DNA of 50,114 nucleotides from positions 1 through 50,114 of IMG/VR virus record IMGVR_UViG_3300024317_000148; one strand, written 5' to 3'. Both the position numbers and the translations under genes were made by a program. Shown here piece by piece: positions 2 to 19,091 of this stretch. The notes beneath the pieces are model-generated. The model ran no database searches. It had not been told where the DNA came from and saw only the letters and a list, made by a program, of their open reading frames with translations. The DNA is from a virus. Within the stretch, counting starts at the first letter, position 1. The number at the start of each line of letters is the position of its first letter.

Positions 2-190
2 TTCCCCGAGAAGGAGGCGAAGGGCGCCCTAGACGAGGAGAACACGCGGAGGCGCGTCAGCGTCATCGAGCGCGCCTGCGACAAGCTCAGCGATGCCGGC
101 GTCTGCGTGCTGAGCGGCGACCGCGACCGCGCGCTGGGCTACGCCGAGGAGACGCTCGGGCTCCACGGCGGTTGGGAGACCGGCGGGTGA
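2..190 (+). CDS. C-terminal end of an unidentified protein (5' truncated)
   Basis: An open frame enters from the left edge and ends in TGA at 188-190, giving 62 residues rich in Arg, Glu and Asp. I recognise no domain in this fragment. Its TGA overlaps the GTG of the PLP-enzyme gene in the GTGA arrangement used throughout the window, so it belongs to the same operon. Because the downstream genes form a thymidine-hypermodification pathway that needs a hydroxymethyl-dU DNA kinase, this could be the end of that kinase, but nothing in the fragment shows it. Confidence 0.6.
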   Translation, partial: FPEKEAKGALDEENTRRRVSVIERACDKLSDAGVCVLSGDRDRALGYAEETLGLHGGWETGG

Positions 191-972
191 TCGTCTCCGG
201 GACGCCCGTCGAGCGCCACGGCGAGCTGTACGTCAAGCGCGAGGACTTGAGCTGTCCCCCGCCCGGCCCGCCGTTCTCGAAGGCGCGCGGCGTCTACGCC
301 CACTTGAAGAAGAGGCCGGAGCGGCTGATCGGGGTCCTCGACACCTTCCACTCGCAAGCGGGACACGCCGTCGCGCGCGCCTGCTCGCTGCTGGGGAAGG
401 ATTGCGTCAACTTCTACCCGCGGACGGTCCGCGACGGCGACCAGCTTCGGGAGCCGCAGCTGCGCTCCGCGGGCTTGGGCGCGCGGCTGGAGCCGCTCGC
501 CGCGGGGCGCTCCTCCGTTCTGTACCACCAGGCGGCGCGCTCGATCCGCGAGCGCGGCGGCTACATGATGCCGAACGCGCTCAAGCTCGGCGAGTCGGTG
601 GAGGAGACGGCGAAGGAGGTGCCGGCGGCGCCGTTCGACTCCGTCGTGATCCCGGTCAGCTCGGGGACAATCGCGGCCGGCGTCATCCGCGGGTTCGCGG
701 GCATCGCCGTCCGGCGGTTCTTCCTGCATCTCGGCTACTCGCGCCCGCGCGGAGCGGTCTTGGAGTACGTCGGACGCGCCTCGGGCTTGATCGGCCTGAC
801 GGCGCCGAGCGCGGAGCTCATCGTCGTGGACGAGGGGTATGCCTACCGAGACGTCGCGCGCCCAGGTCCGACGCCGCCCTGGCCGTGCAACGTCTACTAC
901 GACTTGAAGGCGTACCGGTGGTGGGTCGCTTCGGGGCCGCGCGACCGGACGCTATTCTGGAACATCGGATGA
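187..972 (+). CDS. Fold-type II PLP-dependent enzyme (predicted DNA-hypermodification lyase/decarboxylase)
   Basis: The 261-residue protein resembles the ACC deaminase / D-cysteine desulfhydrase / tryptophan synthase beta fold. Near the N terminus YVKRED is followed by PPFSKARG, where Lys32 is the candidate Schiff-base lysine. SSGT at 158-161 fits the loop that binds the PLP phosphate. I chose GTG at 187 because it overlaps the previous stop as GTGA; TTG at 172 in the same frame is an alternative. Known thymidine-hypermodifying phages (the M6 type) use PLP enzymes to decarboxylate or rearrange the amino acid fixed on the base. The gene sits directly before the GNAT and radical SAM genes, so I infer that it acts on the modified base rather than on free amino acids. 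The exact reaction cannot be read from sequence. Confidence 0.8.
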   Translation: MIVSGTPVERHGELYVKREDLSCPPPGPPFSKARGVYAHLKKRPERLIGVLDTFHSQAGHAVARACSLLGKDCVNFYPRTVRDGDQLREPQLRSAGLGARLEPLAAGRSSVLYHQAARSIRERGGYMMPNALKLGESVEETAKEVPAAPFDSVVIPVSSGTIAAGVIRGFAGIAVRRFFLHLGYSRPRGAVLEYVGRASGLIGLTAPSAELIVVDEGYAYRDVARPGPTPPWPCNVYYDLKAYRWWVASGPRDRTLFWNIG

Positions 973-1382
973 TCCGCGCCGCCACGATCGAGGACCACAA
1001 GGCGATCTTCACCATCGCGAAGCAGTCGGCCTACACCAAGGACTTCGGTCACATGATGTTCTCCGGCCGGGCGCAGTATGGCCTCGGTTGGATTCGCGTG
1101 GCGACGGAGGACGAGCGGATCGTCGGCTTCACTTGCGTGCGCCACAAGGTGCGCTCGCCGGTCACCAAGCTCTATTTCATCGGCACGTCCCCCGCGGTGC
1201 AGGGCCGCGGGTTCGGCGTCGCGCTCCTGCGCGACCTCCAAGAGCAGACGCCGCACCCCAAGATCGTCTTCAACGTCGCGCTCGACAACGAGCGCGCGCT
1301 CAAGTTCTACGCGCGCTTCGGGGCGGTTCGCGAGGGCTCGGACGCACGCTACCTGTTCTTCAGCATCCCCGGGAGGCGTTGA
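969..1382 (+). CDS. GNAT-family N-acetyltransferase (predicted DNA-base acylation)
   Basis: The 137-residue protein is a single GNAT domain. The acetyl-CoA pyrophosphate loop lies in FIGTSPAVQGRGFGVALL, with Q78-G-R-G-F-G as the Q/RxxGxG motif, and a later segment (NERALKFYARFGAV) matches the usual C-terminal GNAT helix and strand. It overlaps the PLP gene by ATGA and the radical SAM gene by TGATG, so translation is probably coupled. Acetyltransferases are known among the enzymes that finish phage thymidine hypermodifications by acylating the added amine. That role is inferred from the neighbours; a free amino acid or protein substrate is not excluded. Confidence 0.82.
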   Translation: MIRAATIEDHKAIFTIAKQSAYTKDFGHMMFSGRAQYGLGWIRVATEDERIVGFTCVRHKVRSPVTKLYFIGTSPAVQGRGFGVALLRDLQEQTPHPKIVFNVALDNERALKFYARFGAVREGSDARYLFFSIPGRR

Positions 1383-2776
1383 TGGACCACGCTGCTTGGC
1401 TGGCCGCCGGGGCCGAAGGCGAAGACGAGACGCGCGAGCGCTACATGTACTTCATGCGGCCCGAGCCGCTCGATCGCGAGCTCGGGCCGATCATTACGAT
1501 GCACGACGAGCTGACGGGGCGCGAGATGCGCTCGCGCACGGCCTTCGTCGGGATGACGCGCAACGCGGAGCCGGAGGCCAAGAAGGAGTTCCGGGTCTAC
1601 CTCGACCCCATGCCCCACATTCGCGTCGAGCATGCGAAGCCGCTGCAGGGCTGGTACCAAGCGAAGCTCGACCCGGAACACCGACCGCGCCCTTGCTTCA
1701 CCGACGCGATCTTGACGGAGCCGTACGGTGGCTACTGCTCGGTAGGCTGTAGCTTCTGCTACGTGAATTCTGGCATGCGCGGCTACCGCGGCTCGGGCCT
1801 CGTCTCGGTGCCGATCGACTACGGCGCGCAGGTACGCAAGCAGCTCGCGACGCTCAAGACGTCCGCGGCCGGCTACTTCAGCTCCTTCACGGATCCGTTC
1901 CTGCCGCTGGAGAGCTACTACCACAACAGCGAGTCCGGCGCCTCGGCGTTCGTCGAGGCAGGGCTGCCGATCTTCTTCCTGTCGCGTCTCTCCTACCCCG
2001 GTTGGGCGATCGACCTGTTGAAGCGAAACCGCTACAGCTACGCGCAAAAGTCGATCAACACCCCGAGCCCGGCCGACTGGAAGGCGCTCTCGCCGGGCGC
2101 GATCTCGCTCGACGAGCACTTCGCGGAGATCCGCGAGCTCCGGCGCCAGGGCATCTACGTCTCGATCCAGGTCAACCCCGTCATGGCGGGGATCGTCTCG
2201 CACGAGGACGTCGAGCACCTCTTCGAGCTCCTCGCGGACGCGGGCGCCAACCACGTCATCGTCAAGTTCGTCGAGGCCGGCTACAGCTGGGCGCCGACGA
2301 TGGTCTCGCGCACGCTCAAGCGCTTCGGTCCCGAGCGCACGGAGAAGTTCCAGGCCCTCTTCACGCAGAACATCGGCGGGCAGCGAACGATCGCTGAGGA
2401 GTACCGCATGGAGGGCCACCACCGCTACCGGCGGCGGGCGACCGTCCTCGGGATGACCTACGCGACCTGCTACGAGTACCGCTACGCGCGCGACGAGGCC
2501 GGCGAGATCCTCTCGAAGCAGGGCGTGTCCGTCGGCAAGGAGTTCCTGACGGGCGATCAATGCCACGGCCACCGCGTGCCGATGTTCTCGCGCGAGCGGT
2601 TGAGCGATCCGTTCCGGGAGGTTGAGGAGTGTCCGCCGACCGGCTGTCTCGTATGTTCGGACGACAACGCGGGGAAACCAAGATGCGGTTCAGAGCTGTT
2701 CGGCCAAGCGAAGGCGTTGCGACTCCCGGATCTGCGGACGAGCGTCCACCGGACGATCGACGAGGCGGACGAGTAA
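1382..2776 (+). CDS. Radical SAM enzyme (predicted hypermodified-thymidine isomerase)
   Basis: The 464-residue protein carries the radical SAM [4Fe-4S] motif CxxxCxxC at C119, C123 and C126 (CSVGCSFCYV). Four more cysteines near the C terminus (C417, C422, C425, C435) may hold an auxiliary cluster or zinc. The central TIM-barrel-like region is complete. ATG 1382 was chosen because it overlaps the GNAT stop; the frame stays open further upstream but over known coding sequence. In M6-like phages a radical SAM isomerase rearranges the glycyl group attached to hydroxymethyl-dU before further tailoring, and this protein sits between PLP, GNAT and amino-acid transferase genes. Family assignment is firm; the DNA substrate is inferred. 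Confidence 0.88.
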   Translation: MDHAAWLAAGAEGEDETRERYMYFMRPEPLDRELGPIITMHDELTGREMRSRTAFVGMTRNAEPEAKKEFRVYLDPMPHIRVEHAKPLQGWYQAKLDPEHRPRPCFTDAILTEPYGGYCSVGCSFCYVNSGMRGYRGSGLVSVPIDYGAQVRKQLATLKTSAAGYFSSFTDPFLPLESYYHNSESGASAFVEAGLPIFFLSRLSYPGWAIDLLKRNRYSYAQKSINTPSPADWKALSPGAISLDEHFAEIRELRRQGIYVSIQVNPVMAGIVSHEDVEHLFELLADAGANHVIVKFVEAGYSWAPTMVSRTLKRFGPERTEKFQALFTQNIGGQRTIAEEYRMEGHHRYRRRATVLGMTYATCYEYRYARDEAGEILSKQGVSVGKEFLTGDQCHGHRVPMFSRERLSDPFREVEECPPTGCLVCSDDNAGKPRCGSELFGQAKALRLPDLRTSVHRTIDEADE

Positions 2777-3042
2777 GCGAGCTCCAGCGGGGCGCGCTCC
2801 AGTCCCTGCGCGCGTCTCCGCTCGGCTTCTCGGCGCTGTGCGAGACGCTCGCCGTCAAGGCGTACACCAAGGAGGGGAACGCGGTCGACCGCGCGCTCCA
2901 GGCGCTCCGCAAGCGCGGCTGGGTGAGCTACTCGCGCGCGGCGTTCCTCGGCGGGCAGTGGCGGTTGACTCCCGCGGGGATCGTCGAGCTCGAACGGATC
3001 GAGTCCGAGGCCAAGCGCGCGACGGGGCTCGGGCACGAGTGA
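2683..3042 (+). CDS. Small winged-helix-like protein
   Basis: The frame overlaps the last 94 bases of the radical SAM gene. ATG 2683 has a good ribosome site (GGGGA at 2671-2675, 7 bases upstream) and gives 119 residues. The first 35 residues, encoded in the overlap, look unstructured. The rest (GALQSLRASPLGFSALCETL then VDRALQALRKRGWVSY and a WRLTPAG beta wing) reads like a winged helix-turn-helix. A start inside the overlap is uncertain, but the downstream frame is clearly coding because its stop overlaps the next GTG. Possible roles are transcription control of the operon or DNA binding during modification; neither is shown. Confidence 0.6.
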   Translation: MRFRAVRPSEGVATPGSADERPPDDRRGGRVSELQRGALQSLRASPLGFSALCETLAVKAYTKEGNAVDRALQALRKRGWVSYSRAAFLGGQWRLTPAGIVELERIESEAKRATGLGHE

Positions 3043-3917
3043 AGCAGCTCGCCGAGTTCTTCGCCTTCGCGCGCGAGCGCTACGAGATCAAGCTCCGGCG
3101 CGACCGCGGCGAGCACCCGCCCTGGACCAAGGACCCGGTGCTGCGGACCTACCGCTTCTGCAATGTCTTTCGCGAGGACGACCGCGTCACGCGCTGGTTC
3201 CGCGACAACATCCGCCAGCCGCTCTGCCAGGCCCCCGACGTCCTTCTCGCTACGATCGCCTTCCGGTGGTTCAACTTCGTCCCCTCGGGCGAGGCGCTCA
3301 AGCCGATGCTGCTGCGCGGTGAGTGGAACTTGGCGGAGGCGCGCCGGCTCCTGCGCGAGGTCCGAGCGCGGTTCGGGCAGGTTGTCACCGGCGCCTTCAT
3401 GGTCCACTCTCCGAACGGGATCGGCCTCGACAAGATCGACGGCTTGACGCAGCGCATCGCCGAGTTCGCCGAGCAGAAGAACCTGCTGCACGGCAAGATC
3501 CGGACGGGGTGCTCGCTCGAAGCCGCGCACCAAGCGATCCTCGACGCGCGCGTCGACTCGATGGGGCGCTTCATGGCGTACGAGGTCGTCACTGATCTCC
3601 GCTGGACCAGCCTCCTCTCGCGCGCGGGTGACATCTTCCACTGGGCCTCCGCCGGTCCCGGCGCGGCGCGCGGGCTCGCTTGGGTCATCCGCGGGGACCT
3701 CGGCGAAGTCCAGTCCTACGGAAGCGCGCGAGCCCAGACCGAGATGAACGCGCAGATGCGCGAGATCCTCGCGGCCTCCAAGGACGAGGACCATTGGCCG
3801 GGCGCGTGGCCGTTCTGGGAGATGCGCGAGGTGGAGCACTCCTTGTGTGAGTACGACAAGCACCAGCGCGCCGCGAAGCTCGGCGAGCGGCTCAAGCGGA
3901 GGTTCACCCCATGCTGA
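3039..3917 (+). CDS. Amino acid:DNA transferase (aGPT-PPlase family), thymidine hypermodification
   Basis: The 292-residue helical protein has the hallmarks of the alpha-glutamyl/putrescinyl thymine pyrophosphorylase family, distant relatives of DNA glycosylases. It shows YRFCNVFREDDRVTRWFRDN around residues 31-50 and, in the C-terminal half, DLRWT followed by a GPGAARGL helix-hairpin-like turn. Members of this family, later renamed amino acid:DNA transferases, replace the pyrophosphate of activated 5-hydroxymethyl-dU in DNA with an amino acid such as glycine, and so make the committed step of thymidine hypermodification. GTG 3039 overlaps the preceding stop, and the gene runs into the hydroxymethylase gene (ATG 3911). 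This is the most diagnostic gene of the modification cluster. Confidence 0.88.
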   Translation: MKQLAEFFAFARERYEIKLRRDRGEHPPWTKDPVLRTYRFCNVFREDDRVTRWFRDNIRQPLCQAPDVLLATIAFRWFNFVPSGEALKPMLLRGEWNLAEARRLLREVRARFGQVVTGAFMVHSPNGIGLDKIDGLTQRIAEFAEQKNLLHGKIRTGCSLEAAHQAILDARVDSMGRFMAYEVVTDLRWTSLLSRAGDIFHWASAGPGAARGLAWVIRGDLGEVQSYGSARAQTEMNAQMREILAASKDEDHWPGAWPFWEMREVEHSLCEYDKHQRAAKLGERLKRRFTPC

Positions 3918-4972
3918 CGGTCAAGGCGAGGAACGTCCATCAAGCCCTCCCCGAGGTCATGCGCCTCGCCCAGCTGCGCGGCTACGAGCGCGAGAGCCGC
4001 AACGGTCCCGTGCGGCTGCTCCCGGAGCCGCTCTCGATCGAGTATGCGCGCCCGACGGAGCGCGTGGTGTTCTGGGCGCAGCGCGACGCCAACCCGTTCT
4101 TCCACCTCTTCGAGGCACTCTGGATGCTCGCCGGACGCGCGGACGTCGCCTTCCCGGCGCGCTTCGCGAAGCAGCTGGCGGCCTACTCCGACAACGGCCG
4201 AACGTTCAACGCCGCCTACGGCTGGCGCTGGCGCTCGTTCTTCGGCGTCGACCAGCTCAACTCGATCGTCGCCGCGCTGCGGAAGGACCCGAACGACCGG
4301 CGCCAGGTCCTGGCGATGTGGGACGCGCGGCGCGACCTCGGGCTCGACTCGAAGGACATCCCCTGTAACCTCACGGCTTGCTTCCAGCTCGGACCTTGGC
4401 GGGCCGGTGACATGCCGGACGGCTCCCCGGGGGTGGCGTTCGACCGCGAGCTCAACATGCTCGTCTCGAACCGCTCGAACGACCTCGTGTGGGGCGCCCT
4501 CGGCGCGAACGCGGTCCACTTCAGCGTGCTCCAAGAGTACCTCGCCGCGCGGATCGGCGCGAAGGTCGGGACCTACCACCAGGTCACGATGAACGGCCAC
4601 GTCTACCAGCGCCACTACGGACTCATGGCCGAGCTCGCGGACGTCGCGGCGGAGCCCACCATCGGCGGCTGCGGTCTCGGCGACCCCTATCTCAAGGAGC
4701 TCGTCGGCGTCGTCCCGCTGGTTCAAGACCCGGAGCGCTTCGAGCGCGAGCTGCACGCGTTCGTCGACGGCGCTCACGAGCGCTACAAGGAGCCGTTCCT
4801 TGCGCGCGTAGCCTTGCCGCTGCTCTGCGCGCATGATGCTTGGGCGCGCGACGACCTCGCGGGGGCGCGCCACCATCTGGTCGCCGCCCGGGACTGCGAC
4901 TGGAAGCGCGCCGCGAGCGAGTGGCTGGAGCGTCGGGTCGACAAGAAGCTCGGCGTATCTGTAGCGCGATGA
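3911..4972 (+). CDS. Thymidylate synthase-like dUMP hydroxymethylase
   Basis: The 353-residue protein belongs to the thymidylate synthase superfamily. It keeps the nucleophile Cys152 in IPCN, the phosphate-binding RSND (188-191), and a GAN segment whose Asn200 corresponds to the TS asparagine that reads the uracil ring; dCMP hydroxymethylases have Asp there, so dUMP is the likely substrate. TS usually has PCH, while here it is PCN. An HVY motif lies near residue 230. I infer 5-hydroxymethyl-dUMP synthesis from methylene-THF, feeding hmdUTP to the polymerase, because the next upstream gene modifies hmdU. Plain thymidylate synthase activity is the alternative. ATG 3911 overlaps the transferase gene by 7 bases. 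Confidence 0.82.
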   Translation: MLTVKARNVHQALPEVMRLAQLRGYERESRNGPVRLLPEPLSIEYARPTERVVFWAQRDANPFFHLFEALWMLAGRADVAFPARFAKQLAAYSDNGRTFNAAYGWRWRSFFGVDQLNSIVAALRKDPNDRRQVLAMWDARRDLGLDSKDIPCNLTACFQLGPWRAGDMPDGSPGVAFDRELNMLVSNRSNDLVWGALGANAVHFSVLQEYLAARIGAKVGTYHQVTMNGHVYQRHYGLMAELADVAAEPTIGGCGLGDPYLKELVGVVPLVQDPERFERELHAFVDGAHERYKEPFLARVALPLLCAHDAWARDDLAGARHHLVAARDCDWKRAASEWLERRVDKKLGVSVAR

Positions 4973-5517
4973 CGATCCTTCCCTTCCAGCTCGCGCGCGC
5001 CCTGCGCGAGGGCGGCGCGGTCGAGCGCTGCCACACGATCCCGCACCACGGCAGCTACACCGTCGGACAGCACAGCTACGACGCGTTGTCGCTCCTGCTC
5101 GTGCTCCATCCGGATCCGACGCTCGCACTCGTCAAGGCCGTCTTGTGGCACGACGTTCCGGAGCGATGGACCGGGGACGTCCCGGCGAATGCCAAATGGG
5201 ACAACCACCGACTCGCCCACGCCCTCGCGGTCTCGGAGGGGAAGGTGTTCGACGCGCTTGGGCTCGGCCCGCTCTTCGAGGGACTTAGCGAGGAGGAGTG
5301 CTCCTGGCTGCACGCTGTCGATCGGCTGGAGCTGTGGCTGTGGTGCCAGGACCAGCTCGCGCTCGGCAACTCCAACGTCCGCGTCGTTCAGAAGAACCTG
5401 GCTGAGTGGAGCGGCGCGCGCTCGGCGATGCCGGATCCCGTCTGGCGCGTGCTCCAGCAACTCGTCCCGGCGCCGCGGACGGACGCGTTGCCGGTCGCTC
5501 TCAAGGAGGTCGGTTGA
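4969..5517 (+). CDS. HD-domain nucleotidase, YfbR-like (dNMP phosphohydrolase)
   Basis: The 182-residue protein has an HD-domain pattern: VGQHSYDA with an early His, the HD pair in LWHDVPERWTGDVPANAKW, and a later Asp in HAVDRLELW. The HD pair followed by E, tGDvP and a lysine is characteristic of the YfbR group of 5'-deoxynucleotidases. Its ATG overlaps the hydroxymethylase stop. In hmU phages a phosphatase often removes dTMP so that hmdUTP replaces dTTP; I infer a similar pool-clearing role here, though another deoxynucleotide could be the target. Confidence 0.78.
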   Translation: MTILPFQLARALREGGAVERCHTIPHHGSYTVGQHSYDALSLLLVLHPDPTLALVKAVLWHDVPERWTGDVPANAKWDNHRLAHALAVSEGKVFDALGLGPLFEGLSEEECSWLHAVDRLELWLWCQDQLALGNSNVRVVQKNLAEWSGARSAMPDPVWRVLQQLVPAPRTDALPVALKEVG

Positions 5518-5930
5518 TGCAAGACCTTGTGGAACGTCTCCGCCTCGCGACGACGCGCGCGGAGGTCTGCACGCTCCTCAACAGCCTGCGCGCCGAGCCG
5601 GACGAGTTCTTCCGCTACCGGGAGATGCTGGCGCCGCTCGCGCAGAGGGACGTCGCCGGCATCCTGCGGAAGGACAACGAGTACGCCGGCTCCTGGAAGC
5701 GCCGCGGCGGGACGGGCGCCTTCATGATGCTCGCGCGGAAGTGGGACCGGCTGGAGCCACAGGTCAAGCGCCACGGCTTCGACATCTTCGCCGCGGCGCT
5801 GGCCGACGCCCGCCCAGAGGGGATCCTCGACGACATCGCTGACCTCCGCAAGTACCTGCTGCTGGTCGAGGCCGAGATCCGCGTACAGCTACACCTCCCC
5901 ATCGACACCACCGAACCCGAGTCACCCTGA
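5517..5930 (+). CDS. DUF1599/Nmad-like small protein
   Basis: The 137-residue protein contains EYAGSWKRRGGTGAFMMLARKWDRLE followed by an acidic helix and DDIADLRKYLLLVEAEI. This (E/Y)...SW...G...K..R...D...D...Y layout resembles DUF1599, named nucleotide-modification-associated domain 1 because it co-occurs with base-modification genes in phages. The assignment rests on pattern memory only. Both ends overlap neighbours as TGATG, linking the modification operon to the sliding clamp gene. No catalytic role is known to me. Confidence 0.65.
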   Translation: MQDLVERLRLATTRAEVCTLLNSLRAEPDEFFRYREMLAPLAQRDVAGILRKDNEYAGSWKRRGGTGAFMMLARKWDRLEPQVKRHGFDIFAAALADARPEGILDDIADLRKYLLLVEAEIRVQLHLPIDTTEPESP

Positions 5931-6970
5931 TGAAGCGCGAAGTCCTCCTCGCCGACCTGAAGAAGATCGAGCCGGCGCTCGCCAAGAGCTCTCCCTACCC
6001 GGCCCTCACCCACGTCTTGTTCCGCGACAAGACGGCGATTGCCTACGACGACGCGCTGGCGCTCAAGCGCAAGGTCGAGCTCGACGGCTTCGAGGGATGT
6101 CTGCCCGGGCGGCTGCTGATCGACTTCCTCGGCGCGAGCGCGGCCGAGGATCTGGAGCGGACCGACGAGGCCGCGGAGGGCTCGATCGGCTTCAAGCTCG
6201 GGCGCTCGAAGATCGAGCTGGCGATGCTGCCGGCCGACGACCATCCGTTCCGCGCGCCGGAGGCGGCGGACGCGCTCGCAATCGACGTCCCGGAGACGTT
6301 CCCGGCGAACCTCGCGAAGGCCGCGGTGACGATGGGCCTCGACTCGCTGCAGCTGTGGTGCTTCGGCGTCACGCTGGTCGTCGAGAAGGGCGAGGGGCGG
6401 CTCCTCTCCACGAACACCTACGCAGCCTCGCGCGTCTACCTCGGCAAGTTCGGGGCGAAGGATCTCAAGGAGCTCCTGCCGCCTCGCTTCGTCGAGGTCT
6501 TCGGTCGCCTCGCGTCGAAGAGCAAGGCGCTGAAGCTCCTCGTGTGGGAGGGCGATTGCATCGGCGCGACGTTCGAGGACGGCACCGAGCTGTTCTGCAA
6601 GACGGTGCCCGAGGCCGACCCCGAGAAGCTCGCGAAGGTCTTCGACCGCGGCGATAACAAGCGCCAGCCGATCCCTGCCGACTTCGACCGGGGCCTCGCG
6701 CGCGCGAAGATCTTCATGACCTCGTCGGTGCTGATCGAGCGCGTCGCCGACTTCCGGATCGCGAAGGAGCGGCTCGCCATCGAGATCCGGAACGAGCGCG
6801 GCTCGTTCCGCGATTCCTGGAAGTTCCCGGAGCACCCCGACATCCTCGTGAAGAGCGTCCCGGAGCTCCTCACGGGGCCGGTCTCGCACAGCACCTCGGT
6901 CTTCTTCGGGGAGAACGCTGTCGAGCTATCCGGTCCGGACTGCGACTTCATCATCGCCAACCAGAAGTAG
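5930..6970 (+). CDS. dnaN: Sliding clamp, DnaN/beta-like
   Basis: The 346-residue protein has the length and alternating strand pattern of bacterial beta clamps. It opens MKREVLLADLKKIEPAL, like the first domain of DnaN, and the middle region resembles the second domain. Sequence similarity is distant, so the call relies on fold-like layout and on the adjacent polymerase and DnaX-like clamp loader. It should ring DNA as a dimer and hold the phage polymerase on the template. The ATG overlaps the upstream stop (TGATG), and only 4 bases separate it from the polymerase gene. Confidence 0.72.
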   Translation: MKREVLLADLKKIEPALAKSSPYPALTHVLFRDKTAIAYDDALALKRKVELDGFEGCLPGRLLIDFLGASAAEDLERTDEAAEGSIGFKLGRSKIELAMLPADDHPFRAPEAADALAIDVPETFPANLAKAAVTMGLDSLQLWCFGVTLVVEKGEGRLLSTNTYAASRVYLGKFGAKDLKELLPPRFVEVFGRLASKSKALKLLVWEGDCIGATFEDGTELFCKTVPEADPEKLAKVFDRGDNKRQPIPADFDRGLARAKIFMTSSVLIERVADFRIAKERLAIEIRNERGSFRDSWKFPEHPDILVKSVPELLTGPVSHSTSVFFGENAVELSGPDCDFIIANQK

Positions 6971-6974
6971 GCCG

Positions 6975-9515
6975 GTGCTCCAGAGCCTGTTCGGGACCCG
7001 GGCCGACGCCCGGGGCGATGGGCGCCGGCGGCGGGGTGGCGAGCAGGCCCGGCTCATTCGCTCGGCCGCCGACATCAACCCGCGCGCCAAGCACCCGGAC
7101 ATGGCGCCCTCGGGCTCGAAGTCCCCGCGGGTCTACATCCTCGGCGAGGCGCCCGGCGAGGAGGAGGACGCGCGCGGCGTCCAGTTCGTCGGCAAGTCCG
7201 GGAAGCGTCTGCGCGAGCTGCTGCCGCGCGGCGTCGAGACCGAGCTCCGCTGGAACAACGCCTGCCGCACCCGCCCGCCCGAGAACCGGACGCCCACGCC
7301 CGAGGAGGTCGAATTCTACAGGCTCGCGCTGCTCGCCGACATCGAGGCGACGCGCCCGGCTGTCGTGATGGCCGTCGGGGGAACCGCGATCGCGACCCTC
7401 CTGCCGGACCTCGGACGCGACGTCGAGCTGTCCCGAGGCCGGCGCTTCCCGCTCCGCGTCGGGAAGCACGAGGCCTGGGTCTGCCCCGTTCATCACCCCG
7501 CCTACATCATGCGGGTCGAGAACGACCGGAAGACCGACGGGGACGTCCCGGGCGAGGAGTGGCGTCGCGTTTGGGAGCGGGACGTCGCGGGCGTCTTCAA
7601 GCTCGCCTCCTCGCTCGAACCGCCGGCGCCCTACGACCTCGCGCTCATCGACAATGGGATCGACCTGCTGACGGACGTCGGCGCGATCCTGGAGCAGCTC
7701 CGGATCGCCTCCCACCCCAACAACGCGTCCTCGGCCGCGAGCCACGCCTTCGACATCGAGACCTCGCGGCTGCGGCCGTACTACGCGGACGCTCAGCTCC
7801 TCACGATCGCGATCGCGACCGGACAGCACGCCTTCGCCTTCCCGTTGGACCACGCCGAGGCGAACTTCTCGCCGCAGGATCGCGAGGCGATCTGGAGCGC
7901 GTTCCTGGGCTGGCTCTCGACGCCGGCGCGGAAGATCGCGCACAACCTGGCGTTTGAGCTGGAGTGGATCGCGCACCGCGGCGGCGGGCTTCGCCGCGCG
8001 CGCTGGGGTGACACGCAGGCGGACGCCTACGTCCTCGACGAGCGGAAGAACGGTCACGGGCTGGAGTTCCTCACGCTGCTGCGCTTCGGCTTCGCGATCA
8101 AGAAGCATAGCTCGGTCTCGCGGAAGCGCGCGGCCGGCGAGCACCTCAACACGCTCCTGCGGTACAACGCGCGCGATGCCAAGTTCACTCTGATGCTCTC
8201 CGCGGTCCAGGAGCGCGATCTGCGGCGCGAGGGGCTCATCGCCATCCGCGACGAGCACGTCCGGCGGATCCCGTCCGCGGTCGGGATGCAGTGCAAGGGC
8301 CTGCTCGTCGACCAGAAGCGACGCGCGCAGTTCGACGAGGAGCTCGCCCGGGACCTCGACCAGCTCCGACGCGGCATGAGCGCGCGGCCCGAGGTCGAGG
8401 AGTACCGCAAGCGCTTCGGCGCGTTCAACCCGGCGTCCAACGACGACCTGGCGCGGATGTTCCGCGACGTGCTCGGCCGGCGCGAGGGCGAGCGGAAGCT
8501 CGGGAAATACTCGACCGACGAGGACACGCTCAAGCTCATGACCGACGTCCCGCTCGCGGCGGAGATCCTGCGGCTCCGACAGACCTCGAAGCTCAAGAGC
8601 ACCTACGTCGATCGCCTCAACCCGGCCCACCGCGACAGCTACGTCTGGCCGGATGGTCGGATCCACGCGCAATTCAAGACGCTTGCGACCGACACCGGGC
8701 GACTCGCGAGCGAGGAGCCCAACGGACAGAACTGGCCGAAGCGGAAGCGCGCCGACATCCGCGCGCAGATCGTCCCGTCGCCGGGCCACCTCTTTGTCGC
8801 GGTCGACTACGCCCAGATCGAGGCGCGCGTCATCGCGATGCTGTCCGGCGATCGGAACCTGGTCCGATCGATCCACGAGCGCTACGACATCCACCTGGAG
8901 TGGGCGCAGCGCATCGCGAAGGAGCACCCTCCCGTCCTCGACCGCTACGATGGCGACGTCAAGAAGTTCCGCAAGATCGATGTCAAGAGCTCGTGGACCT
9001 TCCCGCTGTTCTACGGCGCCAAGGTCGAGCTCGTCGCCGCGCTGCTGGAGATCCCGCGCCAGAAGGCGGAGAAGCTCTACAACGAGTTCTGGGGGCAGTT
9101 CCCGGGCGTGCAGGCGTGGGGCCGCGAGCTCCGCCGCAACTACCGCCGCGACGGCTACGTCGAGACCCTGACGGGCCGCCGGCGCCACGCGCCGCTGAGC
9201 GACAACATGATCGGGAACACCCCGTCCCAGGGGACGGCATCCGACATCGTCGTCGACGCGATGAACCGCCTCTCGGAGCTCGCGGAGGAGACGGGGCAGC
9301 CCTGGTTCCAGCCCAACCTCAACATCCACGACGACCTGACGTTCGAGGTTCCCGAGCGGGAGCTTGAACGAGCTACTTCAACGATCGTTGAAGCGATGGT
9401 CTCGGGGGACTACCCGTGGTTCAACGACATCCCGATTGAGGTGGAGGTATCAGTAGGGCGGAATTGGTACGAGCTAGACCCAATCGGCAAGTTCTCCTCC
9501 GATGAAGCCGCGTGA
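6975..9515 (+). CDS. Fusion of family 4 uracil-DNA glycosylase and family A DNA polymerase with 3'-5' exonuclease
   Basis: The 846-residue protein has three parts. Residues 50-190 form a family 4-type UDG: GEAPG at 57-61, then D..GVQFVGKSGK and a HPAYIMR segment. Residues 255-430 are a DEDD exonuclease: D260-I-E262, HNLAFELEW, and YNARDAKFT. The rest is a Pol I-like polymerase: TDTGRLASEEPNGQNWP, motif A VDYAQIEAR (D611, E615), motif B around KSSWTFPLFYGAK, and motif C HDD at 785-787. GTG 6975 is the annotated start; its ribosome site is weak. The glycosylase may scan for uracil, a plausible need in a phage that makes hydroxymethyl-dUMP from dUMP. The 3' end contains an 18-bp palindrome. Confidence 0.92.
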   Translation: MLQSLFGTRADARGDGRRRRGGEQARLIRSAADINPRAKHPDMAPSGSKSPRVYILGEAPGEEEDARGVQFVGKSGKRLRELLPRGVETELRWNNACRTRPPENRTPTPEEVEFYRLALLADIEATRPAVVMAVGGTAIATLLPDLGRDVELSRGRRFPLRVGKHEAWVCPVHHPAYIMRVENDRKTDGDVPGEEWRRVWERDVAGVFKLASSLEPPAPYDLALIDNGIDLLTDVGAILEQLRIASHPNNASSAASHAFDIETSRLRPYYADAQLLTIAIATGQHAFAFPLDHAEANFSPQDREAIWSAFLGWLSTPARKIAHNLAFELEWIAHRGGGLRRARWGDTQADAYVLDERKNGHGLEFLTLLRFGFAIKKHSSVSRKRAAGEHLNTLLRYNARDAKFTLMLSAVQERDLRREGLIAIRDEHVRRIPSAVGMQCKGLLVDQKRRAQFDEELARDLDQLRRGMSARPEVEEYRKRFGAFNPASNDDLARMFRDVLGRREGERKLGKYSTDEDTLKLMTDVPLAAEILRLRQTSKLKSTYVDRLNPAHRDSYVWPDGRIHAQFKTLATDTGRLASEEPNGQNWPKRKRADIRAQIVPSPGHLFVAVDYAQIEARVIAMLSGDRNLVRSIHERYDIHLEWAQRIAKEHPPVLDRYDGDVKKFRKIDVKSSWTFPLFYGAKVELVAALLEIPRQKAEKLYNEFWGQFPGVQAWGRELRRNYRRDGYVETLTGRRRHAPLSDNMIGNTPSQGTASDIVVDAMNRLSELAEETGQPWFQPNLNIHDDLTFEVPERELERATSTIVEAMVSGDYPWFNDIPIEVEVSVGRNWYELDPIGKFSSDEAA
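9376..9393. repeat. 18-bp perfect palindrome inside the polymerase gene
   Basis: The sequence CTTCAACGATCGTTGAAG reads identically on both strands and lies about 120 bases before the polymerase stop, where codon use becomes less GC-biased than upstream. It could be an operator or protein-binding site, a cryptic hairpin, or chance from codons for the Thr-Ser-Thr-Ile-Val-Glu stretch. Confidence 0.6.
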
Positions 9516-14184: not shown

Positions 14185-14765
14185 TCGGCTCCAAGCTCGC
14201 GTTCCTGTGCTCGACCTGCGGGGCGATCGCCATCACGGTCGTTCGCGCTGCGGGCGCGGTCCCGCGCGAGACGCGCTGTCTCGCGCCGCGCTGTCGCGCG
14301 GGGCGGATGGCGTTCCGCGGAGCGGTCGACCTCCAGCTACGGGCGGACTTCCAGTGGGTGCGGCTCACGCGCGGCGCGCTCCGTCGCGCGAGACGCGACG
14401 GGAACCGCGAGTTGCTGGCGCAGGACGCGCGCGGCGAGCTGTCGCTCGTTCCCTGGCCGCGCGAGTGGAGCAAGGGCGCAACCGAATCGTTCTCCAAGGT
14501 CTGGGCGCGGGTTGTTCCCGAAGTCCAGGCCAAGGCAAAGGAATCCGGGACTAGCTCGGCCCCGGAACACGTCAACGACGCAAGCCAAGACCCGGCCCCG
14601 GTAGCTCTGGGAGCCCCGGACGTCCCTGGCGGGACGCCCGCGCGGGTCGACGCATCGAGCGAGTCGCAGGCGGAGGACGCTCCGCTGAGCGACCAGCCGG
14701 CGGTGGAAAGCCCCGGCTCCAATCAAGGGACCGTCTCGGGCCGCGATCGGTTCGGTGCTCCTTGA
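14181..14765 (+). CDS. Zinc-ribbon-like hypothetical protein with disordered C terminus
   Basis: The 194-residue protein has a cysteine set in its first 40 residues (CSTCG, then C and CRAG), suggesting a small zinc ribbon. The middle is basic (RLTRGALRRARRDGNREL). The last 70 residues are rich in Ser, Pro, Ala, Glu and look disordered. GTG start and TTGA end overlaps tie it to its neighbours. DNA or RNA binding is plausible from composition but not shown. Confidence 0.55.
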   Translation: MIGSKLAFLCSTCGAIAITVVRAAGAVPRETRCLAPRCRAGRMAFRGAVDLQLRADFQWVRLTRGALRRARRDGNRELLAQDARGELSLVPWPREWSKGATESFSKVWARVVPEVQAKAKESGTSSAPEHVNDASQDPAPVALGAPDVPGGTPARVDASSESQAEDAPLSDQPAVESPGSNQGTVSGRDRFGAP

Positions 14766-15100
14766 GCGCGCGTTCGCCCTGGCACCCGCTCAAGCGGATG
14801 AAGGACTGGAACGGTCGGCGGGTTCGGCTCCTCGTCGACACGAGCAACAGGGGCGGGGACGTAATCGAGGCGGGGACGATCTGCACGGCGACCGGCTACC
14901 CGCGCGGTCGTCTGTCGATCTCGGCGCCTTGGCCGAAGACGCAGCTGGCGCACCAGCCCCCGCGTTCGCGGGGGTCTACCGCGCGATGGATCACCGGGGT
15001 CAGCATTCGGAACGTCGAGCTCATTCCGGAGCCCTACGAGATACGCGCGGCCGAGCTCGCGACCGCCAGCGAAGTTCGGCGAGCTCGGAGAGAGTCGTGA
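14762..15100 (+). CDS. Hypothetical small protein
   Basis: The 112-residue protein opens HPLKRMKDWNGRRVRLLVDTSNRGGDVIEAGTICTATGYPRGRLSIS, a run of short strands typical of a small beta-barrel. No family is recognised. It starts at TTG inside the upstream stop and its stop overlaps the SbcD-like GTG. Confidence 0.6.
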   Translation: MSARSPWHPLKRMKDWNGRRVRLLVDTSNRGGDVIEAGTICTATGYPRGRLSISAPWPKTQLAHQPPRSRGSTARWITGVSIRNVELIPEPYEIRAAELATASEVRRARRES

Positions 15101-16107
15101 AGGCCCTCTTCACCTCCGACATCCACCTCTCGCCTCGTCCGCGCGACGAGTACCGCTGGCGGATCTTCGACTGGCTGCGGGTGCAGGCGCTGTCGCGCGA
15201 GGTCCGCTCGATCTTCCTCCTCGGCGACCTCACGGACCAGAAGGACCGCCACACCAACGAGTTCATCAACCGGATCGTCGACGCGCTCGCGAAGCTCGCC
15301 TCCGAGATCGATGGCACGGTCGACCTGCTCGTCGGCAACCACGACTACACCGAGCCCTCGGCGCCGCTGCTGCGCTTCCTGAACTCGGACCCGGTGCGCG
15401 TCTACTTCAAGCCCGAGCTGATCGAGCGCGAGGGCGAGCGGATCTGGATGCTGCCCCACTCGCGCGCGCCGATCGTCGGATGGCGCGACCTCGACCTGAA
15501 GCGCGGGCGCTTCGCGCTCTGTCATCAGACCTTCGACGGCGCGCTCGTCGAGAACGGCGAGGTGCTGAAGGTCGGGCTGCACCCCGGCGACCTGAGTGGG
15601 CGCCTCGCGCGGAACGTCGAGCTGATCTCCGGCGACGTCCACGTCCCCCAGACGCTCGGCTCCTTGGTCTACTGCGGCTCGCCGCACCCCATCCGCTTCG
15701 GGGACCGGTTCCAGCCGCGCGTCTTGTACTACGACGGGAACGAGCTGCTGTCGATCAAGCGCGTGGCGATCCGCAAGGTCATCGCGGAGGTCGAGCGCGT
15801 CGAAGACCTCGCGGCCTACGAGCTCGACGAGGAGGACCAGGCCAAGGTCGTCTTCGCGCTCCCGCGCTCTCGCTTCGGCGAGTGGGACGAGATCCGGCGC
15901 GCGGTCGAGGAGCTCGCTCAAGAGGGCGGATGGCTCCTGGTCGGCGTGGAGCTCGTAGAACTCGACGCGATGGCGGACAAGAAGCTCAAGGAGGCGGCTC
16001 CGGTCGAGCGCCTCAAGCCGGTCGAGCTGTTCGAGCGCTTCTGCGAAGCGAACGCGATCGAGAAGCCGGCGGCCGAGCTCGGGCGACGACTGGTGGCTGG
16101 AACGTAG
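15097..16107 (+). CDS. SbcD/Mre11-like nuclease (T4 gp47 type)
   Basis: The 336-residue protein has the calcineurin-like metallophosphoesterase motifs in order: SDIHL (D8, H10), LLGDLTDQKDRH, VGNHD, a later single His in ALCHQTFDG, and SGDVHVPQ. This is the manganese nuclease partner of SbcC/Rad50, encoded one gene downstream. The complex trims and opens double-strand ends or hairpins and supports recombination-dependent replication. GTG 15097 overlaps the previous stop. The C-terminal 100 residues are lineage-specific and should contact the SbcC partner. Confidence 0.88.
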   Translation: MKALFTSDIHLSPRPRDEYRWRIFDWLRVQALSREVRSIFLLGDLTDQKDRHTNEFINRIVDALAKLASEIDGTVDLLVGNHDYTEPSAPLLRFLNSDPVRVYFKPELIEREGERIWMLPHSRAPIVGWRDLDLKRGRFALCHQTFDGALVENGEVLKVGLHPGDLSGRLARNVELISGDVHVPQTLGSLVYCGSPHPIRFGDRFQPRVLYYDGNELLSIKRVAIRKVIAEVERVEDLAAYELDEEDQAKVVFALPRSRFGEWDEIRRAVEELAQEGGWLLVGVELVELDAMADKKLKEAAPVERLKPVELFERFCEANAIEKPAAELGRRLVAGT

Positions 16108-16120
16108 AAGGAATGACCCG

Positions 16121-16474
16121 ATGAGACACCAATGGACGATTCCGTTCCACGCCTCCCAGGTAGCGCGGCTTGCGGAGGCGCGGCTCGCGTACCACCGGGT
16201 TCGCCTCGACGCCTGGGAGGCCGAGCACAAGCAGGCGCAGTCCGAGCTCCAGGCGAAGGGCGTGGAGGTCCGCAGCTACGACGTGACGGGCGGGCAGCGC
16301 CAGGACGTCACGATCGATCCGGTGCTCGCGAAGCGTCTCGGCGAGTGCCAGGCTGCGATCAAGAAGCACCAGACCGCGATCGACGAGCTGGAGCGCTGGC
16401 ACCGCGTCCTCCGGGACCGCGACAGCATCACGCTCGACCTCACCCAGGACGACCTGGAGTTTTTCGGCGCGTGA
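16121..16474 (+). CDS. Coiled-coil hypothetical protein between SbcD and SbcC
   Basis: The 117-residue protein is helical and charged, with heptad-like stretches (RLAEARLAYHRVRLDAWEAE and CQAAIKKHQTAIDELERW) that suggest an antiparallel coiled coil. I do not recognise the family. Its location between the two SbcCD genes, with its stop overlapping the SbcC GTG, suggests it works with the complex. Confidence 0.6.
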   Translation: MRHQWTIPFHASQVARLAEARLAYHRVRLDAWEAEHKQAQSELQAKGVEVRSYDVTGGQRQDVTIDPVLAKRLGECQAAIKKHQTAIDELERWHRVLRDRDSITLDLTQDDLEFFGA

Positions 16475-18372
16475 GCGGCGTTCGGTTCCAACGCCTCTTC
16501 ATCCGCGGGTTCAAGTCGTACTCGACGGAGACCGTCTGGGAGATCTCGCTCCGACGCGACGGCTTCTTCCTCGTGAGCGGCGAGAACGGGGCCGGCAAGA
16601 GCTCGCTCGCGGGCGCGCTACTCTGGGTGCTGTTCGGGAAGACGGAGCGCGGTTCGAAGGCGTCGACGATTGTCAACCGCTCCGGCCAATTCCTGACGTC
16701 GGTCGCCGTCGACCTCGTCGTCGGCGACCGCGACTGCAGGCTGACGCGCACGCAGAACCCCAACAGCCTGACGCTCGCGGAGAGCGAGGGATGGGCCGAC
16801 GCGCGCGTGGTGACCCAGGACGAGGTCGACGCGCTGCTCGGGATCTCCTACGAGGGTGCGCTCCTCACCTTCGTCTTCGGGCAGTTCAACGCGTTCTTCT
16901 TCGACCTGAGCCCGACCGAGAAGCTCGCGTTGCTTTCCCAGTTCCTGGAGCTGGATCCCTGGATCGAGGCGAGCGATCGCGCGAAGGCGGCCGCGCGCGG
17001 GCTCTCCGTGCAAGTCGAGGCCGCGCGCCGCCAGCTGTCGGCCGGCGAGGCCCGCGTCGAGCTTTTGGGGAGCGCGATTGAGGACACGAAGACCCGCGCC
17101 GCGGCCTACGAGGGCGAGCGCAAGACCCGCGAGGACCGCTGGCTCGCGGCGCGCGAGGCGGCGGAGGACAAGGTCGAGCTGCTCGTCGACGAGCTGGAGC
17201 GCTCGGCCTCCGAGGTCGCGCGGTTGGAGGGCGAGATCGCGAAGGCGCGGGACGAGCTCCTGCGCGAGGACGAGCTCCTCAAGCGGGCGCGCGAGCGGGT
17301 CGGCGGGCTCCACGTCGCGCGCGCCAATGCCGAGGACGCGCTCAAGGCGCTGAAGAAGCGGCGGGGCGACGTCGCCCGCCTCGAAGGGGACTGCCCTACC
17401 TGCTTGCGGGAGGTCACCGCGGATCATCTGGAGCGCTCCCTGGCGAAGCTCGACGGCGAGCTCCGGGGCCTGGCGGATCGCGCGGATGCCGCGAGGCGCG
17501 TCGAGGTGGAGGCGATCGAGGCGCGGGACGAGATCGAGAAGCGTCTCCGCGCGGTCGACGCTCGCTTCACGCGCGCCCAGAATCACCTCAACACCGCGAC
17601 GGCCGACCGCAACGCGGCGTCGCACGACAAGGCCCGCGCGCTCGCGCAGTTCGAAGAGGCCAAGCGCCGGTTGGCGGAGGTCGACCTGGAAGCCAACCCC
17701 TACGCGGACCAGCTCAAGACCCAGAAGGGCGAGCTCGACAACGAGAGCCGCGCGGCCGCCGTGCGCGCCGAGGAGGTCGAGCAACTCGGGAACCACCAGG
17801 CCCTCGCCGAGTTCTGGATCAAGGGCTTCCGGGACATCCGGCTCTGGGTCGTCGAACAGGCGCTCTCCGAACTCGAACTCCACGTCAACAACGCGATCTC
17901 CGAGCTCGGCTTGCGGGGCCACTCGATCCGCTTCGACATCGAGCGTCCGAAGGCGGACGGGAGCGGCGTGATCCGCGGCTTCAGCGTGCTTGTCTACGCG
18001 CCCGGCCACCCGGATCCGGTTTCCTGGGAGAGCTGGAGCGGCGGGGAGACGCAGCGTCTTCGGATCGCCGGCGCGATCGGGCTGTCGGACCTCGTCTGCG
18101 CGCGCCGCGGTTTCCACCCCTCCGTGGAGTTCTGGGATGAGCCCACGGCGCACCTGAACTCCGCCGGCGTCGACGACCTCGTAGAGCTGCTCGGAGTGCG
18201 GGCGCGCCAGCGCCGGCGCCAGGTCTACTTGATCGATCACCGAGCCATCGACGCGGGCGACTTCGACGGCGAGATCCGCGTCCGGAAGTCGAGCCTCGGT
18301 TCTCAGCTCGCCTACAACTTCAACGTCACCTCCCCCGACCACAAGGAAGGCTATGCCGCGCAAGCGCGTTGA
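16471..18372 (+). CDS. SbcC/Rad50-like SMC ATPase (T4 gp46 type)
   Basis: The 633-residue protein has an N-terminal ATPase half with Walker A GENGAGKSS (37-45) and Q-loop FGQFN, then a long coiled coil interrupted by a CPTC zinc hook (C308, C311), then the C-terminal half with ABC signature WSGGETQRLRIA and Walker B VEFWDEPTAHLN. This is complete and typical of short phage Rad50 proteins. It pairs with the nuclease encoded at 15097. GTG 16471 overlaps the upstream stop; the next gene starts 20 bases before its own stop. Confidence 0.9.
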   Translation: MSGVRFQRLFIRGFKSYSTETVWEISLRRDGFFLVSGENGAGKSSLAGALLWVLFGKTERGSKASTIVNRSGQFLTSVAVDLVVGDRDCRLTRTQNPNSLTLAESEGWADARVVTQDEVDALLGISYEGALLTFVFGQFNAFFFDLSPTEKLALLSQFLELDPWIEASDRAKAAARGLSVQVEAARRQLSAGEARVELLGSAIEDTKTRAAAYEGERKTREDRWLAAREAAEDKVELLVDELERSASEVARLEGEIAKARDELLREDELLKRARERVGGLHVARANAEDALKALKKRRGDVARLEGDCPTCLREVTADHLERSLAKLDGELRGLADRADAARRVEVEAIEARDEIEKRLRAVDARFTRAQNHLNTATADRNAASHDKARALAQFEEAKRRLAEVDLEANPYADQLKTQKGELDNESRAAAVRAEEVEQLGNHQALAEFWIKGFRDIRLWVVEQALSELELHVNNAISELGLRGHSIRFDIERPKADGSGVIRGFSVLVYAPGHPDPVSWESWSGGETQRLRIAGAIGLSDLVCARRGFHPSVEFWDEPTAHLNSAGVDDLVELLGVRARQRRRQVYLIDHRAIDAGDFDGEIRVRKSSLGSQLAYNFNVTSPDHKEGYAAQAR

Positions 18373-18599: not shown

Positions 18600-19091
18600 A
18601 TGCACGGCGGCAGCTTCGTGAACCCCCAGCCGGCGATCCCCCAGGAGCTCGAACGCCGGCGGATCGTCCGCCTCGCGTTCTCCGCGGCGCACAGGGTGTT
18701 GGACTCGCCGCGCTGCGGCTTGATCCACGGCCACGACTTCGTCGTTTGGGCCCACTTGGTCCCCATCGAAGGGATCTCCGCGCGGGTAGAAGCCGACGCG
18801 GACTTTCGCCAGGACGCGGAGATCGTCCTGCGACGCGAGCTCAAGTCACACTTGCTGCTCCAGCAGGGCGACCCGCTGTTGAATCCGTTGGAGGAGGGCG
18901 CCTCGGCGCGCCAGGAGCACTGCGACCGCTTCCGGATCAAGGAGCTCGATTTCGCGCCGACGTTCGAGGGACTCGCGCGACACCTCTTCGGTCTGTTCGG
19001 CGCGCCCGCGCTGGCCGGCGGCTTCTACGTCGTCAAGGTCGCGGTCTTCAACGCCCTCGACGAGGGCGCCAGCTTCGGATTCGAGCCCTGA
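18600..19091 (+). CDS. QueD/PTPS-like 6-carboxytetrahydropterin synthase homologue
   Basis: The 163-residue protein has FSAAHRV with His31, then RCGLIHGHDF with C39, H43 and H45. That is the zinc histidine triad and catalytic cysteine arrangement of the PTPS/QueD family, with the usual 4-residue step from Cys to His. In the C-terminal strand the family normally has a pterin-binding Glu (V-x-V-x-E-T); here the sequence is VKVAVFN, so the residue may be changed. QueD makes carboxytetrahydropterin on the way to 7-deazaguanines. No QueE, QueC or ArcTGT-like gene is visible here. The ATG has an AGGAGGA ribosome site. Confidence 0.75.
   Translation: MHGGSFVNPQPAIPQELERRRIVRLAFSAAHRVLDSPRCGLIHGHDFVVWAHLVPIEGISARVEADADFRQDAEIVLRRELKSHLLLQQGDPLLNPLEEGASARQEHCDRFRIKELDFAPTFEGLARHLFGLFGAPALAGGFYVVKVAVFNALDEGASFGFEP

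Follow-up and report, generated by a model that had tools for sequence, protein, structure and literature searches.

Organization of the hypermodification cassette

The window analyzed here is the whole of the viral contig IMGVR_UViG_3300024317_000148 (50,114 bases), and the sequence upstream of its position 1 is therefore unseen. On the plus strand, from position 2 to 6970 and just upstream of the DNA polymerase gene polA, lies what, judged from its gene content, is a cassette for the hypermodification of 5-hydroxymethyl-2′-deoxyuridine (5-hmdU). Gene identities were assigned by comparison. In order, the cassette encodes the C-terminal end of a P-loop 5-hmdU DNA kinase, a pyridoxal phosphate (PLP)-dependent enzyme, a GNAT N-acetyltransferase, a radical S-adenosylmethionine (SAM) enzyme, a small winged-helix-like protein, the helical component of the kinase, a thymidylate synthase (TS) homolog, an HD-domain nucleotidase, a small conserved protein and a processivity-factor-like protein. 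The neighboring open reading frames (ORFs) are all open, each abutting or overlapping the next; they are intact, and their catalytic residues are conserved. A preliminary description of this DNA had presented it as a row of overlapping genes forming an M6-type thymidine-hypermodification operon. Both points were borne out: the ORFs are real and lie on one strand, the PLP, GNAT, radical SAM, TS and HD assignments are backed by Pfam or PHROG families, and the PLP, radical SAM and GNAT tailoring genes are grouped with the 5-hmdU genes.

Tailoring enzymes

Two of the tailoring enzymes are, by sequence comparison, orthologs of gp52 and gp53 of Pseudomonas phage M6. The PLP-dependent enzyme (187–972, plus strand), of fold type II, matched PF00291 (8.5e-11) and phrog_7093 (1e-63), and its alignment with M6 gp52 gave 50% identity, with the PLP lysine (Lys32) and the SSGT motif conserved. 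The radical SAM enzyme (1382–2776, plus strand) matched phrog_9252 (1.5e-215) and was 67% identical to M6 gp53 over a full-length alignment, in which its CX3CX2C motif and four further C-terminal cysteines were invariant. The latter is predicted to isomerize a glycine adduct and the former to decarboxylate the isomerized product, and in M6 the radical SAM isomerization reportedly precedes the PLP decarboxylation. The DNA of M6 contains 5-(2-aminoethyl)-2′-deoxyuridine (5-NedU) (PMC6449724). The preliminary description, which had suggested comparing these two proteins with the M6 enzymes, expected a product that is either decarboxylated or lysed. This narrows to the first option, since the PLP enzyme is a gp52 ortholog and no flavin lyase is present in the available sequence: a tblastn search of the window for a flavin-dependent lyase of the type of PaMx11 gp47 was without a match.

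The third tailoring gene (969–1382, plus strand) encodes a GNAT N-acetyltransferase (PF00583, 4.6e-12) related to gp48 of phage PaMx11, with 46% identity over 119 amino acids (E = 6e-37), and its AlphaFold model shows a GNAT fold with a predicted local distance difference test score (pLDDT) of 85. In PaMx11, the GNAT step is said to be the acetylation of 5-aminomethyl-2′-deoxyuridine. Two further PaMx11 proteins, gp46 and gp47, are full-length matches of PDB entries 8z2m (“Glycinyltransferase”) and 8z2o (“Flavin-dependent lyase”), respectively. Genes of the gp48 type were detected in 15 of 50,697 phage records, all from Pseudomonas phages, and the phage loci that were read are PaMx11-type cassettes with the flavin lyase and without PLP or radical SAM genes. 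The IMG/VR contig counts given throughout describe a sample, drawn from scans by peptide patterns with at most 80 loci listed per scan. Among ten IMG/VR matches to the GNAT motif, the gene was confirmed in four, all of them inside 5-hmdU cassettes, while the ten matches in cellular genomes included no gene confirmed by hidden Markov model. Among the viral loci of the searched collections, the GNAT family was seen only in 5-hmdU cassettes, which it appears to mark.

The closest arrangement was found in IMG/VR contig IMGVR_UViG_3300047160_002555 (L059), whose GNAT is 51% identical to that of the window. These two GNATs form one group (support 0.946), and both differ from each of the six GNATs associated with flavin lyases by a one-residue deletion and a serine-to-glycine change. 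In the model, the affected site falls in the alpha1-alpha2 loop, the least confident part of the structure (pLDDT <50). This loop is a common acceptor-binding site in GNATs. As a sign of an altered acceptor, the difference, seen in two sequences, is only suggestive.

Rarity of the enzyme combination

The preliminary description had called the enzyme combination unusual, and the survey agrees. Apart from the window, PLP, radical SAM and GNAT genes occurred together in 1 of the 76 other IMG/VR contigs with PLP and radical SAM genes, namely L059; a GNAT was not seen in the other 75, and the flavin lyase was present in none of the 76. The operon of L059 runs in the order helical kinase component, P-loop kinase, radical SAM enzyme, PF18724-type transferase, PLP enzyme and GNAT, and no flavin lyase was found in it either. 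In both the window and L059, the GNAT gene directly follows the PLP gene. A search for any PF00583 GNAT in 104 IMG/VR and 9 phage records placed one near a PLP and radical SAM cassette only in L059; PaMx11 and Epa5 have a GNAT within their PaMx11-type cassettes, and the other matches were distant from the cassette.

Within the searched collections, a cassette that pairs the isomerase and decarboxylase of the M6 type with an acetyltransferase of the PaMx11 type is a new permutation, the primary papers being outside that search. The pathway and every enzyme class in it are already known, and combinatorial permutations of hypermodification genes have reportedly been noted in viral metagenomes. 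Another tailoring permutation was observed in three IMG/VR contigs (L043, L050 and L076), in which a flavin-lyase-like gene accompanies an M6-type radical SAM gene and no PLP gene was seen.

Proposed pathway and alternative readings

The cassette is probably an M6-type 5-hmdU cassette to which a PaMx11-type acetyltransferase has been added after the last M6 step, giving 5-(2-acetamidoethyl)-2′-deoxyuridine. The order and roles of the radical SAM, PLP and GNAT steps follow those reported for M6 and PaMx11. The TS homolog would produce 5-hydroxymethyl-2′-deoxyuridine monophosphate, and the HD nucleotidase would hold down the thymidine monophosphate (dTMP) pool, allowing 5-hmdU to be incorporated into the DNA. 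The P-loop kinase, together with its helical base-flipping partner, would then phosphorylate 5-hmdU in the DNA, and a PF18724 transferase, presumed to be encoded upstream of the contig edge, would exchange the phosphate for glycine. The radical SAM enzyme would shift the bond from the nitrogen to the alpha carbon, and the PLP enzyme would decarboxylate the adduct to 5-(2-aminoethyl)-2′-deoxyuridine. Finally, the GNAT would acetylate the amine, turning a cationic base into a neutral one. The transferase beyond the contig edge and the acetylated end product are both inferred. Where the preliminary description had said that the product may be new, the pathway gives a specific prediction of its identity. 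The broader proposal, that the DNA of this phage contains 5-(2-acetamidoethyl)-2′-deoxyuridine made by the M6 pathway plus a PaMx11-type DNA N-acetyltransferase, and that phages exchange tailoring enzymes and thereby switch the charge of the base, is one that we favor by a small measure.

Several points weigh against the proposed pathway. The acceptor of the GNAT is a prediction, and its sequence cannot separate a 5-aminomethyl from a 5-aminoethyl substrate; the loop argument draws on two sequences and on a stretch modeled at pLDDT below 50. The unseen DNA beyond the contig edge could encode a flavin lyase. The PF18724 search of the 50 kb window found no transferase gene, and glycine transfer is therefore argued from relatives. 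The predicted nucleoside is named in no phage-DNA paper found by our search, to which the pathway’s primary papers were external.

The GNAT might have no part in the DNA modification and act elsewhere, for example on a protein of the host, on a small molecule or on a free nucleotide, leaving 5-(2-aminoethyl)-2′-deoxyuridine as the end product of a plain M6 pathway. GNATs are versatile, and the 75 of 76 PLP and radical SAM contigs that lack one indicate that it is dispensable for the M6 steps. However, the gp48-type family was seen only in 5-hmdU cassettes, and its gene directly follows the PLP gene in the window and L059, the two PLP-type contigs that have it, so that we consider this reading unlikely, if the best of the alternatives.

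Less likely again is that a different acylated base is made, either because the GNAT acts on another intermediate or because the PLP enzyme does not decarboxylate; the result could be 5-acetamidomethyl-2′-deoxyuridine, reportedly the base of PaMx11, or an N-acyl amino-acid adduct. The 46% identity of the GNAT to PaMx11 gp48 would fit such a product, as would a flavin lyase hidden beyond the contig edge. The PLP and radical SAM enzymes, however, closely resemble their counterparts in M6, a phage whose product is 5-NedU, and the flavin lyase occurs neither in L059 nor in any of the 76 contigs that combine PLP and radical SAM genes.

The missing amino acid:DNA transferase

The preliminary description saw the kinase as the only gap in the enzyme set. 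This proved too generous, as the PF18724 search of the window indicates that the transferase is absent from it as well. Since a PF18724-type gene is carried by 71 of the 76 distinct IMG/VR contigs having both PLP and radical SAM genes, the transferase gene of this phage was probably cut off just upstream of the contig edge. In two contigs (L093 and L094), the radical SAM gene adjoins two PLP-family genes, and no PF18724-type gene was found in the available stretch.

If the phage had no transferase at all, its DNA would contain only 5-hmdU or phospho-5-hmdU, and the tailoring genes would be remnants. We regard this as very improbable, despite the absence of PF18724 from 50 kb: the contig ends inside the kinase gene, some of the five relatives without the transferase are fragments, and the cassette ORFs are all intact, with their catalytic residues conserved.

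The 5-hmdU DNA kinase

The protein encoded at 3039–3917 (plus strand) belongs to clade 1 of the aGPT-PPlase proteins (HMUDK_hel). It matched PF18723 (“5-hmdU DNA kinase, helical domain”) with E = 1.5e-43 and 149.6 bits against a gathering cut-off of 25, and the Pfam search gave no match to PF18724 (“Amino acid:DNA transferase”). These two families are represented by separate genes in known phages, M6 gp55 and PaMx11 gp50 for PF18723 and M6 gp51 and PaMx11 gp46 for PF18724. The AlphaFold model of the 3039–3917 protein (pLDDT 94) has an Ogg-type, DNA-glycosylase-like base-flipping fold; a fold search returned 8-oxoguanine DNA glycosylases, although the scores were modest (E = 0.12 at best, with a probability of 0.99), while 8z2m was absent among the matches listed, and no sequence relative was found in the PDB. 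In Bacillus phage SBSphiC, the P-loop kinase domain PF18748 and PF18723 are fused in one ORF of 652 amino acids. We conclude from these matches and the model that the 3039–3917 protein is the helical component of this kinase.

The same protein had been taken in the preliminary description for an amino acid:DNA transferase of the aGPT-PPlase type, with the window’s set complete except for the kinase, and, although the old name aGPT-PPlase spans both clades and hhalign weakly aligns a shared helical region of the PF18723 and PF18724 profiles (P = 0.007, probability 5.6%), this version is barely credible and was rejected in view of the PF18723 match in place of PF18724, that hhalign result, the fold search, the SBSphiC fusion and the presence of both a PF18723 and a PF18724 gene in M6 and in PaMx11.

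The P-loop part of the kinase is truncated. The ORF at the left edge (2–190, plus strand; 62 amino acids) matched no Pfam model, and a PF18748 search of the whole window returned nothing even at E = 1, that model having missed the fragment. A dedicated profile, made from 79 phage kinases, was compared with the C-termini of approximately 18,600 ORFs and 2,000 shuffled sequences. The left-edge fragment ranked first (E = 3e-6, 27.0 bits), the next best score being 11.7. It also aligned with the C-terminus of PaMx11 gp49 (BLASTP E = 9e-6), and when all 50,697 phage records were searched, the lowest E-value (0.4) was given by the kinase C-terminus of Lucjan, from the same clade. These comparisons indicate that a P-loop kinase is encoded here, with only its C-terminal fragment within the contig, as the preliminary description had guessed. 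The 5-hmdU DNA kinase is thus represented by a complete helical part and a fragment of its P-loop part.

The kinases of M6 (gp54, L002) and PaMx11 (gp49, L003) and those of L005 and L006 carry the public annotation “terminase small subunit”; M6 gp54 matches PF18748 at 7.7e-18 despite that label. A common mislabeling is corrected in this way: aGPT-PPlase clade 1 proteins in these phages are components of the kinase, while the actual kinases often bear the name terminase small subunit.

Remaining cassette genes and neighboring genes

The TS homolog (3911–4972, plus strand), a predicted deoxyuridine monophosphate hydroxymethylase, matched PF00303 (7.3e-19) and phrog_5131 (1.3e-107), and its DNA matched a Bordetella phage gene annotated as thymidylate synthase/deoxyuridylate hydroxymethyltransferase. 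The HD-domain protein (4969–5517, plus strand), a YfbR-like 5′-deoxynucleotidase predicted to prune the dTMP pool, matched phrog_6047 (2.7e-49) and PF12917 (1.6e-5, slightly under the cut-off). The small gene at 5517–5930 (plus strand) is of the “nucleotide modification” type and a relative of Pam3_54. Many other contigs have this gene at the same position of their cassettes, and the proteins share an SWK..GG.GAFMM.ARKWDR-like motif. The label DUF1599-like (DUF1599/Nmad1) given to it in the preliminary description found no backing, as its protein matched no Pfam family up to E = 10.

The winged-helix-like ORF (2629–3042, plus strand; PF25213 below threshold, 7.7e-6) has a likely start codon approximately 90–150 bases within the radical SAM gene and occupies the slot of the kinase in M6. 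The cassette is bounded by a gene for a DNA polymerase processivity-factor-like protein (5930–6970, plus strand; phrog_947, 2.3e-23), a downstream replication gene. It is followed by polA (6975–9515), which encodes a family A DNA polymerase whose exonuclease and polymerase domains are fused to an N-terminal domain of the uracil-DNA-glycosylase superfamily (PF03167, residues 46–184, E = 2.6e-21). Such a domain on the polymerase deserves attention given the 5-hmdU expected in this phage. Further downstream, adjacent genes for SbcD-like and SbcC-like nuclease subunits (14755–18372) and a QueD/PTPS-like gene (18600–19091; PF01242, 3.2e-5) were observed. The latter hinted at a 7-deazaguanine pathway, which was rejected, as no TGT/DpdA family was found in the window.

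Implications

If the proposed pathway is correct, a neutral, acetylated member would join the known amino-acid-derived phage bases, and tailoring genes would be interchangeable modules. A testable rule would follow, in which PLP and radical SAM genes predict 5-NedU and the addition of a GNAT gene predicts acetyl-5-NedU. The GNAT would also be a candidate DNA-amine acetyltransferase for chemically tagged DNA. What makes the case interesting is a single, specific chemical prediction, open to testing with recombinant enzymes.

Comparison with known systems

The cassette of Pseudomonas phage M6 (gp51–gp61, Yuavirus, 5-NedU) resembles that of the window in its radical SAM, PLP, HMUDK_hel, kinase, TS and HD genes and in its location near polA. 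The two differ in that a GNAT is absent from M6, that the M6 kinase gene sits between the radical SAM and HMUDK_hel genes whereas that of the window precedes the PLP gene, and that M6 gp51 (PF18724) has no counterpart within the window. The HMUDK_hel protein of the window is closer to that of PaMx11 (approximately 50% identity) than to that of M6 (33%).

The PaMx11/Abidjanvirus/Epaquintavirus group, with its gp46–gp53 cassette, is the clade closest to the kinase C-terminus and HMUDK_hel protein of the window, and its GNATs are 46–54% identical to that of the window. PaMx11-type cassettes carry a flavin-dependent lyase and lack PLP and radical SAM genes, whereas the window has PLP and radical SAM genes and no lyase was found in it.

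Pseudanabaena phage Pam3 shares the PLP enzyme (approximately 55–57% identity), the radical SAM enzyme, the 5′-deoxynucleotidase and the small “nucleotide modification” gene with the window, but lacks a GNAT and has an HNH endonuclease gene between the PLP and radical SAM genes. In Pam3 and LKO4 (L004, L008) alike, the gene at this position, which is the slot held by the GNAT in the window, encodes a small endonuclease, of the HNH type in Pam3. L059 differs from the window in its gene order and in its visible transferase and kinase genes, and shares with it the combination of PLP, radical SAM and GNAT genes, the absence of a flavin lyase from the available sequence and the position of the GNAT gene beside the PLP gene.

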